64,000 nt of DNA from Thermococcus sp. GTDB taxonomy: Archaea; Methanobacteriota_B; Thermococci; Thermococcales; Thermococcaceae. The position numbers and the translations under genes are program-made. Under the pieces are notes generated by a model, which saw only the letters and a list, made by a program, of their open reading frames with translations, had not been told where the DNA came from and did not search any database. This document shows, piece after piece, positions 21,264 through 25,134 of this stretch. The stretch is from NCBI RefSeq assembly GCF_027011145.1, contig NZ_JALVAO010000050.1, forward strand, positions 1 through 64,000. Direction: 5' to 3'. Position 1 is the first letter of the stretch, and every line of letters starts with the position of its first letter.

Positions 21264-21737
21264 ATGAGAACACTAATTCTCGCCCTCGGAAACGAACTCA
21301 TGAGGGACGATGGAGTTGGACTTAAAGTTGGCAGAGTTCTCAAGGAGATGGGCTACAACGTTCTCGAAGCTGGAACCGACGTCTTCCTCCTGGCCAACCA
21401 CTACAAAGGAGAGGATAGGATTGTTATAGTTGATGCAATACTCAGCGATAAGCTTGAAGCGGGTGAAATAGTTCATCTGAGGGGGGAGGAAGTTTTTGAA
21501 AAACTAAAGGCAGAGATAAGGAGTGCTCACTTCATGGGTGCGATAGACGGCTTGAAACTCCTAATGGCAATGGACGAGCGCCTTGCCAAAGCGGACATCC
21601 ATTTCGTGGGTGTTGTTGTCAGGGAGATAGACCTTGGGATGGAGCTGAGCGATGAAGTCAAGGACGCCATTCCGAGGGTCGTTGAGCTTATCGAACGCCT
21701 CTCTAGGGACAGTAAAACCCCAAAAGGACATCCTTAA
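21264..21737 (+). CDS. Hydrogenase maturation protease (HyaD/HycI family)
   Basis: 157 residues. Removes the C-terminal peptide of a NiFe large subunit after metal insertion. The start of the protein, LALGNELMRDDGVGLKVG, holds the nickel-sensing Glu and Asp of the family (GNxLxxDDGxG), with the second acidic region VIVDAILSD and the His in SAHFMGA. ATG 21264 follows GGGGGAG. Location close to hydBGDA suggests HydA as substrate, but other hydrogenases may be served. Confidence 0.92.
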   Translation: MRTLILALGNELMRDDGVGLKVGRVLKEMGYNVLEAGTDVFLLANHYKGEDRIVIVDAILSDKLEAGEIVHLRGEEVFEKLKAEIRSAHFMGAIDGLKLLMAMDERLAKADIHFVGVVVREIDLGMELSDEVKDAIPRVVELIERLSRDSKTPKGHP

Positions 21738-21772
21738 ATACAATGTGAGTATAGATAAAATGAGGGATGTTT

Positions 21773-22759
21773 ATGGAGGCCTATAAGTGCGAACGCTGTG
21801 GGGCGCCCCTTGAGGTGACCCCCGAGACAATCGTTGCCGTCTGTCCGTACTGCGGTTTTCCGAACCACATCACCGGAAACCTCAGGACTGAGGACATGTT
21901 CATCGTTCCCTCGATGAACAAAAACCAGATAGCGGAGGCGTTCTGGCGAACCGTTGAGAAGGACTTTGACCTCAGGCGAATTAAGGACTCCATTCAGGTA
22001 GTGGAAATCGAAGGCCACTACGCCCCCTACTGGGTTGGGAACGTTCACGTCGAGGGAGACGTTGAGTATACGGTTCTTGAGGAGGAGTGCCATACCTACA
22101 CCGACAGCGACGGGAACACAGAGACCAGATGTCACACCGTCGAGAAGCACTATCACGACTACGTTGATGAGACGCTCCACCTGATAGGGCCCGCCAGGAG
22201 GCAGGTGGCGAGCTTCGGTGTTGACGACATCATAAAGCACTACTCCAGAACGAATCCAGAGGAGAAGCGCCTGCTCGACCTTGACGAGGGCCAGTGGGAG
22301 AGGCTCAAGCTTGAGATACTAAACACCGAGATGGACGAGGAACAGGCAAAGCTGATGATGAGGGAAGACGCTATAGACGTCATAAGGAACCGCTATTCCG
22401 CGAAAGCTGACAAGATAGACTGGTTCGATGTGAAAGCCGAGGAACCGAAGTACACGCGCCTCGTGCTCCTGCCGATGTGGACTGTCTATTACAAGTTCGA
22501 GAACTCGATATACCATTCGGTCTTCGCGGGCTGGGACGGAAAGAGGGTGGCATCAACCGAACCCATGTCCACCCTGAGGAGGGCCGAGTACCTCGGCGGT
22601 GTAGTGCTTGGACTTCTCATCGGGGCCTTTGGAGTCGCCTACGGAGCGGGAGTGAACGACCTGGGCATAGGGGCCTTCTCCCTCGGAATAGGCTCGGTCT
22701 TAAGCGGTTACTTCGGCCTTAGAGTCCTCGAAGGCCAGCGCGTCGAGAGGGGTGGTTGA
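21773..22759 (+). CDS. Zinc-ribbon membrane protein, first gene of SPFH cluster
   Basis: 328 residues. An N-terminal zinc ribbon (CERC at 6-9, CPYC at 24-27) leads into a long soluble part with a His/Cys-rich stretch (EECHTYTDSDGN, RCHTVEKHYHDY) and ends with two hydrophobic segments around 275-315. The layout resembles YdjG of Bacillus subtilis, a zinc-ribbon membrane protein encoded with PspA and an SPFH protein. TATA-like ccttaaatac at 21731; start 21773 follows GAGGGA. Function not known. Confidence 0.75.
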   Translation: MEAYKCERCGAPLEVTPETIVAVCPYCGFPNHITGNLRTEDMFIVPSMNKNQIAEAFWRTVEKDFDLRRIKDSIQVVEIEGHYAPYWVGNVHVEGDVEYTVLEEECHTYTDSDGNTETRCHTVEKHYHDYVDETLHLIGPARRQVASFGVDDIIKHYSRTNPEEKRLLDLDEGQWERLKLEILNTEMDEEQAKLMMREDAIDVIRNRYSAKADKIDWFDVKAEEPKYTRLVLLPMWTVYYKFENSIYHSVFAGWDGKRVASTEPMSTLRRAEYLGGVVLGLLIGAFGVAYGAGVNDLGIGAFSLGIGSVLSGYFGLRVLEGQRVERGG

Positions 22760-22760
22760 A

Positions 22761-23657
22761 GTGGAAGTCACCTGTCCCACCTGCTCGGCCAAGTTTAAAG
22801 TTCCCGACACCGTTGAAGTGGCAACCTGTCCCTACTGCGGAACGACGTTTCACGTTCATACCAAAGAGACCGGTGAACACTTCTTCTTCCCGCCGATGAA
22901 AAAAGACGCAGGTGGAGTTCTCCTCAAGTTCCTCTCAAGGCAGTATGGTGCCCCGGCTGACATAACAGGGGCGAAGATAACCAAAAAGGAACTTCACTGG
23001 GTCCCGGTTTACTTCTTCTACCTCCACGGGAGGAGCAGAAGATGGGGGAGCGTTGAGGAAGTCCAGTTCATGGGGATTCCGGCAGGTTCTCCCTTCGAGA
23101 GCCTCCTTCAGGGCTATCCCTTCCCGATTAGGGGGAAGGTCTTCTTCAGCGAGGACATTGTGAAGAAAGGCCGCTACTACGAGCCCGAGGTGTCGAGGGA
23201 GGAGGCGGAGGAGCTGGCTAGGGTAGCTTTGATAAACGCCCTGAAGGGCGAAGGAAGTCAGGAGGATAAAGACATAAGCGAGGAGGAACTTGAGCTCGAG
23301 GTTCGCTACCTCGGTTTGGTTCATTACCCCCTCTGGGAGCTCCGCTACGAGTATGGGGGCAACGAATACTGGGGCTACGTTGACGGAACCGATGGGAGGG
23401 TTATCTCAGCTGAATACCCGCTGGAGAGCGAGGCCAGGAAGAAGGCCACCGCCCTGGCGATGGGCGTCGTTGGAGCGGGTGCGGTTCTGGGTGTAATAGC
23501 CTCGGCCATCTTTGGAACTCCATGGGGAATTCTCGGTGGGATTGTCCCGGGCATTGCCGGGGCCTGGGGGATAGGCTCAAAGGGCGCCGTGAAGAAGAGA
23601 ATAGTGAGCGGTGTCATGAAGGGTCGCTCCGGAAACCTTTACTTCCAGCCGATTTGA
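22761..23657 (+). CDS. Second zinc-ribbon membrane protein of SPFH cluster
   Basis: 298 residues with the same plan as the preceding gene: zinc ribbon (CPTC and CPYCG in the first 30 residues), a soluble middle with LHWVPVYFFYLHG and LVHYPLWELRYEY, and two glycine-rich hydrophobic helices near 240-280. The WVPVYFFYLHG and HYPLWELRYEY segments echo the YAPYWVG and LLPMWTVYYKF segments of the upstream protein, so the two are probably paralogues. I chose GTG 22761, after GAGGGGTGG; a GTG at 22752 is possible. Confidence 0.72.
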   Translation: MEVTCPTCSAKFKVPDTVEVATCPYCGTTFHVHTKETGEHFFFPPMKKDAGGVLLKFLSRQYGAPADITGAKITKKELHWVPVYFFYLHGRSRRWGSVEEVQFMGIPAGSPFESLLQGYPFPIRGKVFFSEDIVKKGRYYEPEVSREEAEELARVALINALKGEGSQEDKDISEEELELEVRYLGLVHYPLWELRYEYGGNEYWGYVDGTDGRVISAEYPLESEARKKATALAMGVVGAGAVLGVIASAIFGTPWGILGGIVPGIAGAWGIGSKGAVKKRIVSGVMKGRSGNLYFQPI

Positions 23658-23666
23658 GGTGATAAC

Positions 23667-24161
23667 ATGGGGAAGGAGACCTCAATAGTTGAGAAGCTTG
23701 AGCTCGTGATTCCCGGTTTCCACGGATACAAGAAGAAGGAACTTTTGAGGGAAGACGACAGGCTAATCAGGGGCAAGGTCGCGGAGATACTCGGCCAGGC
23801 CAAGAGGGAAATGGAGAGGGCACTTCAAAGGTGCGCGATGGTGAACTGCCAGCAACTTATGGCCATTGAGAACCTAAGGAAGAAGCTCATGATGCTTGAG
23901 AGCAGGGTCAGACATGCGGAGGCAGGCTACCGCGGTTACTTCGACAGGATTAAGTTCAGGGAGGAGGAGATAAAGAGGCTCATAGAGTACGATGCCAAGA
24001 TGATTGAGCTGGCCGAGGAGATACTCAACGAGGCCAAGAACCTGAACGCGCAGGTTGCAAATCCCCAATCCCTTGGAATGGCGGTGCTGAACCTCGATGA
24101 CAAACTCGTTAACTTTGAAGAGGTTTTGAGCCAGAGGATGAGCTTCGCGGTGGGTGAGTGA
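23667..24161 (+). CDS. Helical coiled-coil protein of SPFH cluster
   Basis: 164 residues, almost all helix. After VIPGFHGYKKKELLREDDRL there are long charged heptad-like helices. In size and position it could be the structural counterpart of PspA (an ESCRT-III-like protein) in the comparable Bacillus operon, but I see no sequence proof of the PspA fold. It is preceded by GAGGTGAT and is followed by the SPFH gene with only one base between stop and start. Confidence 0.7.
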   Translation: MGKETSIVEKLELVIPGFHGYKKKELLREDDRLIRGKVAEILGQAKREMERALQRCAMVNCQQLMAIENLRKKLMMLESRVRHAEAGYRGYFDRIKFREEEIKRLIEYDAKMIELAEEILNEAKNLNAQVANPQSLGMAVLNLDDKLVNFEEVLSQRMSFAVGE

Positions 24162-24162
24162 G

Positions 24163-25134
24163 ATGGTTCAGGTGATAGAATGGGTCAATCCCGGGGAAGA
24201 CGAGATAATCTGGCGCTATCCAAATGAGGTCATAAAGTGGGGCGCCCAGCTGATAGTCCACGAGTACGAGGTAGCGGTCTTCATGCGCGACGGAAAAATC
24301 TACGATGTCCTCGGCCCGGGAAGGCACACCCTAACGACGCAGAACCTGCCACTCCTCTACAAGCTCGTCGGAGGAAGCAACAGCCCATTCAAGGCCACGA
24401 TAATTTTCGTCAGCACCAAACAGTTTCAGGGACGCTACGGAGGAGAAACGCAGACGAGGGAACTGGCTCCGGTCAAGTACTACGGCGTCTACTGGTTCAA
24501 GGTTGCCGACCCGGTTCTCTTCATAACCGAGGTGGTCGGGGGGCAGAGCCTCTACGACGCTCAGGACGTTACAAAGTTCATTCGCGCTTATTTCAACGAA
24601 GGCATGATGAAGCACCTTTCCACTTACTCGATAGTTGACCTCTTCCAGAACCTCGACATGGTGAGCACTCAGGTTAAGGTAAAGCTGATGGAGGACTTCA
24701 GAAGGCTTGGCCTTGAGCTGGTTGATGTAAAGATTGAGGGCGTCAACACCACCGACGAGTGGCGTCAGAGGCTCTTCTGGCTCATGCAGACGGGCAACGC
24801 TCAGGCAGTGATGCAGATGGACACGGTAAAGCAAGTCGCTGCTGAACTCGGAAAGAGCCCCGGAGCTGGGGTGGGAACCGGAATGGTCCTGGTTCCCCAG
24901 CTCTTCCAGCAACCGGCCCAGCCCTATGCTGGAACACCCGCGGGGCCACAGCAACCCGTTGCTCCAGCGATGCAACAAGGCCAGCAGGAAATCTGCCCGT
25001 ACTGTGGCAAGCCGATTCCACCAGGGGCGCGCTTCTGTCCCTACTGCGGGCACGAAATCAAGCGCTGTCCCAACGGCCACATAGTTCCAGAAGGGGCGAA
25101 GTTCTGTCCCGTCTGCGGGGCGAAGATTGAGTAA
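24163..25134 (+). CDS. SPFH-domain protein with C-terminal zinc ribbons (YdjI-like)
   Basis: 323 residues. The first 215 are an SPFH/band-7-like domain of the virion-core/YdjI type (VIEWVNPGEDEIIWRYPNE, FMRDGKIYDVLGPGRHTL). A Gln/Pro-rich linker (about 240-280) leads to two zinc ribbons: CPYCGKPIPPGARFCPYCG and a second with one Cys replaced by a CPNGH element before CPVCG. No TM helix is seen, so membrane contact would come from the SPFH part or its partners. Last gene of the four-gene set; ends before a convergent peptidase. Confidence 0.82.
   Translation: MVQVIEWVNPGEDEIIWRYPNEVIKWGAQLIVHEYEVAVFMRDGKIYDVLGPGRHTLTTQNLPLLYKLVGGSNSPFKATIIFVSTKQFQGRYGGETQTRELAPVKYYGVYWFKVADPVLFITEVVGGQSLYDAQDVTKFIRAYFNEGMMKHLSTYSIVDLFQNLDMVSTQVKVKLMEDFRRLGLELVDVKIEGVNTTDEWRQRLFWLMQTGNAQAVMQMDTVKQVAAELGKSPGAGVGTGMVLVPQLFQQPAQPYAGTPAGPQQPVAPAMQQGQQEICPYCGKPIPPGARFCPYCGHEIKRCPNGHIVPEGAKFCPVCGAKIE

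Follow-up and report, generated by a model that had tools for sequence, protein, structure and literature searches.

SPFH proteins are nearly universal, and for most of them we know of no binding partner. The window analysed here, a 64,000-nucleotide stretch of a 1.73-Mb Thermococcus genome, holds an SPFH gene in a row of four, which raises the question of what an archaeal SPFH protein works with. According to the original prediction, the row resembles the pspA-ydjGHI membrane-stress operon of Bacillus subtilis, with a small helical protein in the place of PspA. In B. subtilis, the SPFH protein YdjI is soluble, with a C-terminal zinc finger and no transmembrane segment, and the membrane foci formed by YdjI and PspA require the membrane proteins YdjG and YdjH, to which they are linked by two-hybrid assays (PMC8581546). 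We give a probability of about 0.6 to the reading that the archaeal operon encodes a Ydj-like SPFH membrane scaffold that does without PspA, in which the helical protein is an obligate partner of the SPFH protein and two zinc-ribbon proteins serve as anchors. The features of the locus, with the short names used below, are as follows.

21734..21743, plus strand: CTTAAATAC, a candidate TATA-like element some 30 bases 5' of ZA, recognised by eye only.
21773-22759, plus strand: ZA, zinc-ribbon protein of 328 aa, ATG start with GAGGGAT ahead of it.
22761-23657, plus strand: ZB, zinc-ribbon protein, GTG start most likely (the frame opens at the GTG at 22752).
23667-24161, plus strand: CC, helical protein of 164 aa, with GAGGTGAT ahead of the start.
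24163-25134, plus strand: SP, YdjI-type SPFH protein of 323 aa.

The tight four-gene operon with a spacing of a few bases was thus found as described, all on the plus strand from 21773 to 25134, with intergenic gaps of 1 base (ZA-ZB), 9 bases (ZB-CC) and 1 base (CC-SP). The order ZA-ZB-CC-SP is conserved in related Thermococcus loci, where CC retains 63-98% identity, which argues that the four genes are real and under selection. In the window, HycI, a gene for a hydrogenase maturation protease, precedes the operon; at the same place three related loci (L079, L080, L081) carry a gene for a HAD-type phosphatase, identified by reading. Since this upstream neighbour differs, we consider the HycI protease to lie outside the system.

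SP matched Band_7_1 (PF13421) at 1.5e-33 with 116.6 bits, above the cut-off of 24, and Band_7 at 4.9e-22. It carries the two C-terminal zinc ribbons that had been claimed for it, together with a Pro/Gln-rich linker, and Kyte-Doolittle hydropathy revealed no transmembrane segment or hydrophobic stretch. On sequence grounds it is classed as a soluble SPFH protein of the YdjI type.

The description of ZA and ZB as paralogous zinc-ribbon membrane proteins also held: the two align with an hhalign E of 3.6e-13 across 252 columns, and hydropathy places C-terminal membrane segments in both of them and in neither CC nor SP. ZA consists of an N-terminal C4 zinc ribbon, a beta region, a PepSY-like segment (LLPMWTVYYKFENSIYHSVFAGWDGK) and a C-terminal hydrophobic segment at about residues 271-295, the predicted membrane anchor. 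In ZB, the zinc ribbon and beta region are followed by a PepSY-like domain, whose PepSY/YpeB match is weak (0.11), and by a helical membrane hairpin with helices at 224-252 and 256-273 in the structure model. That model is only moderately confident (pLDDT 76), and comparison of the ZB fold with the PDB gave no useful match.

A second ZA/ZB pair is encoded in the same genome just beyond the end of the window (C50:67153-69122, minus strand, equivalent to L090:7154-9123). It is accompanied by neither CC nor SP, adjoins a gene for a TIP49-like AAA protein and is kept in other Thermococcus genomes; its separate existence suggests that ZA and ZB probably act as a pair. ZB was found in 49 of the 57 CC-bearing genomes of the phylum, and an incomplete genome yielded one further ZB fragment. 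In other phyla, CC and SP have ZA/ZB-type genes in their vicinity at L121, L126 (both types), L129 (both types) and L140, so that the full set recurs beyond the genus. Close relatives of ZA and ZB are absent from many loci with CC and SP, which, with the stand-alone pair, indicates that they are tied to the system less tightly than CC and SP are to each other. At L091:5238-7185 and L121:2164-4620, a ZB-like gene divergently adjoins a gene for an HtpX-like membrane protease, again identified by reading.

Within the phylum, CC and SP occur in an identical set of 57 of 115 genomes, adjacent and on the same strand every time (Fisher 3e-34, with SP counted as strong Band_7_1 genes and the counts uncorrected for phylogeny). 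Across 396 archaeal genomes, SP accompanies CC in 81/81 cases and appears without it in 3 only, again uncorrected for phylogeny; a marginal match in genome G110, inside an 887-aa frame, was left out of these counts. Thirteen of the Thermococcus genomes searched have neither CC nor a strong SP. Outside the phylum, SP lies at most 430 bases from CC on the same strand in 16/24 loci; in the seven genomes of one family (f42), 3-7 kb separate the two, or they fall on different contigs; one further locus (G199) is cut off by the end of its contig. The proposed co-occurrence across archaea was thereby borne out, most strictly for the pair: CC and SP form an inseparable core that recurs across archaeal phyla, and ZA/ZB-type genes accompany it in some other lineages. 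Every CC-bearing archaeal genome found thus links one branch of SPFH proteins with the same uncharacterised partner family and sets that branch apart from PspA.

AlphaFold2, in a monomer prediction from 13 Thermococcus sequences, confidently folds CC into a compact bundle of four helices (pLDDT 89, pTM 0.86). On this model, the expectation of an all-helical 164-aa coiled-coil protein was right as to the helices and wrong as to an extended coiled coil. The family shows two motifs, PG-x2-GYK-x-KE-x2-R-x2-D-x3-R and HA-x2-GY-x-G, and Y21, R28, D31, R35, G87, D109 and R157 are conserved among 15 archaeal CC proteins. NCBIfam model NF047596 (LIMLP_15305) was matched by 14 of 15 diverse archaeal CC proteins, the best at 8e-21. 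The CC of the window reaches 23.6 bits against a curated cut-off of 210 bits, which no genome of the phylum attained, and CC appears to be only a distant relative of the LIMLP_15305 family; the Leptospira paper that names LIMLP_15305 makes no statement on function. Foldseek against the PDB returned nothing for CC under E 0.001, the best matches being Chlamydia IncA (TM ~0.5) and other helical bundles, and a PDB profile search gave generic coiled-coil and helical chains only. No copies of CC were found in viral contigs, or on plasmids with four different queries. At one archaeal locus (L139:5831-6517), a fusion has placed zinc ribbons at the N-terminus of CC.

The likeness to ydjGHI was upheld for the parts other than CC. 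Both operons are tight and combine a YdjI-type SPFH protein with a C-terminal zinc finger, zinc-ribbon membrane proteins and one further partner gene; SP and CC are soluble, and ZA and ZB carry membrane segments, much as YdjI stands to YdjG and YdjH. YdjG itself is a membrane protein with a zinc ribbon and a YpeB-related domain; ZA and ZB have a ribbon and a membrane segment, and ZB the weak PepSY/YpeB match, which would make them possible counterparts of YdjG. ZA and ZB also match bacterial ribbon proteins encoded directly 3' of YdjI-like SPFH genes. In Comamonas (L087), the neighbour is a TFIIB-type zinc-ribbon protein that ZA matches over 240 columns, nearly its full length (hhalign E 9.8e-10 in a one-to-one comparison), and in Paracoccus (L085), hhalign matches the neighbouring protein to the ribbon domain of ZB. 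No CC gene was recognised at these two bacterial pairs, where the association is annotated but unexplained.

In other respects the two differ. The archaeal operon has no PspA, its partner CC being a four-helix bundle of a different family, it has the paralogues ZA and ZB where Bacillus has YdjG plus YdjH, and its SPFH protein bears two zinc ribbons. No protein with a TPM domain (YdjH-type, PF04536) was matched in the genome. The function of Ydj is known from one bacterium and relies there on PspA and the TPM protein, neither of which was found here. An SPFH protein with a coiled coil and a zinc ribbon occurs beside genes for membrane remodelling at the Meth_adaptin ESCRT loci of Methanobacteriales (PMC11188069), which resemble the present locus in having an archaeal SPFH protein with a zinc ribbon; those loci hold Vps4 and ESCRT-III, whereas the Thermococcus locus has neither and its genome lacks Snf7. 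The combination of an SPFH protein with zinc-ribbon membrane proteins is already known from ydjGHI, which has been treated in comparative studies (PMC11237479, PMC9239133). A search of the open-access literature turned up no account of the CC family or of a link between it and SPFH proteins; CC is the newly recognised core partner.

From the division of labour that the operon shares with Ydj (a soluble SPFH protein, membrane ribbon proteins and a soluble helical partner), we infer a physical complex of the following topology. ZA and ZB would be held in the membrane by their C-terminal hydrophobic segments, with the zinc-ribbon and PepSY-like domains probably cytoplasmic, and would form a paired anchor for SP, probably through contacts between their ribbons and the C-terminal zinc ribbons of SP. 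SP would oligomerise at the inner face of the membrane, and CC would be its dedicated adaptor or assembly subunit rather than a membrane-remodelling polymer. The most likely physiological role would be the organisation or protection of the membrane, or the handling of damaged membrane proteins, under stress. The function of YdjI-type SPFH proteins thereby becomes testable in genetically tractable hyperthermophiles.

A bolder version, which we offer tentatively and would sooner bet against, is that CC and the YdjI-type SPFH protein, a pair recognised by its co-inheritance across archaeal phyla, constitute an ancient prokaryotic two-protein membrane machine. The four-helix bundle would then fill the PspA/ESCRT-III role of Bacillus as an independent means of membrane maintenance in archaea that have no PspA, and exchangeable zinc-ribbon adaptors would pick the client.

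Among the alternatives, the one that survives best, although we regard it as rather unlikely, is that SP and CC act as a holder or adaptor in membrane-protein quality control, corralling unfolded membrane proteins for proteases in the manner of HflKC-FtsH or stomatin-NfeD. Links with the proteases FtsH or NfeD are known for other subfamilies of SPFH proteins (PMC2636767), and the pairing of a ZB-like with an HtpX-like gene in two lineages hints at such a link. The HtpX-like genes were named from sequence reading rather than by a family search, however, and the neighbourhood of the operon contains no HtpX, either in the window or in most of the CC-SP loci read.

A membrane-repairing polymer of the PspA/ESCRT-III kind, brought to the membrane by SP, ZA and ZB, was the identity originally proposed for CC, and we now consider it improbable. 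The gene order does resemble that of pspA-ydjGHI, and neither PspA (PF04012) nor Snf7 was matched anywhere in the genome. PspA (23 genomes) and CC (81 genomes) never occur together among the 396 archaeal genomes, as would be expected if CC replaced PspA; outside the phylum, however, this exclusion is not significant (p 0.24). The sequence of CC itself speaks against the proposal. None of the members of the Thermococcus CC alignment matched the Pfam PspA or Snf7 models; one distant CC member matched Snf7 at 0.061, which is chance level. The hhalign probability of CC against E. coli PspA was 0.1%, a weak test alone given the single-sequence template. The structural comparison with PspA, Vipp1 and Snf7 that had been suggested pointed the same way, with no significant ESCRT-III or PspA fold match for the predicted bundle: its helices measure about 35, 25, 30 and 30 residues with no long hairpin, and the sole ESCRT-III-type chain in the Foldseek top 50 was CdvB2 (TM ~0.2, E 0.41). 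An ESCRT-III/PspA identity of CC was accordingly rejected by the profile, hhalign and Foldseek searches, which removes a tempting, unsupported label from the family.

It is very improbable that the ribbons of ZA and ZB are DNA- or polymerase-binding regulators that relay a membrane signal to transcription. The ZA ribbon is weakly similar to RNA polymerase subunit P (4e-4), ZB-type ribbons are likewise weakly similar to LysW, and a DNA-binding role has been suggested for YdjG (PMC9239133), but these ribbon matches are generic and far under the cut-offs, and since SP itself bears zinc ribbons, protein-protein contact is the simpler role. That the gene set is a patchily kept accessory system, for instance for anti-phage defence or secretion, is hardly credible despite its patchy spread and the Thermococcus genomes that lack both CC and a strong SP, because the gene order is fixed across the genus, no defence genes recur around the loci read, and PADLOC gave no meaningful match for ZA, ZB, CC or SP, on which ground a defence system was ruled out.

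Returning to the scaffold reading, other zinc-ribbon proteins accompany CC and SPFH elsewhere. A second subtype, found in family f37, has the order TPR/zinc finger, zinc-ribbon protein of about 510 aa, CC, SPFH; the ribbon protein is present at L124, L131-L133 and L135, and the finger gene was seen at L132, L133 and L135. Two Thermococcus genomes (at L045:5397-9473 and L077:7679-11932) contain CC, an SPFH protein with a SHOCT-like tail, a TPR/zinc finger protein and a 503-aa zinc-ribbon protein, and are without the ZA/ZB type; the finger and ribbon genes are here downstream of CC-SPFH, not upstream. The occurrence in these genomes of a subtype common to a distant archaeal family is probably due to replacement or transfer.

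In three genomes of one family (L042:7627-10469, L078:1258-4100 and L041:1-1952), a zinc-ribbon protein is encoded 5' of CC-SPFH; its complete form has 529 aa. It ends in a Cys/Ala-rich tail, CVCACVSCACACACVSCACACAGGGGF, and is followed by a PqqD + radical SAM + SPASM enzyme. The tail thus seems to undergo a modification of the peptide type, in connection with the CC-SPFH system.
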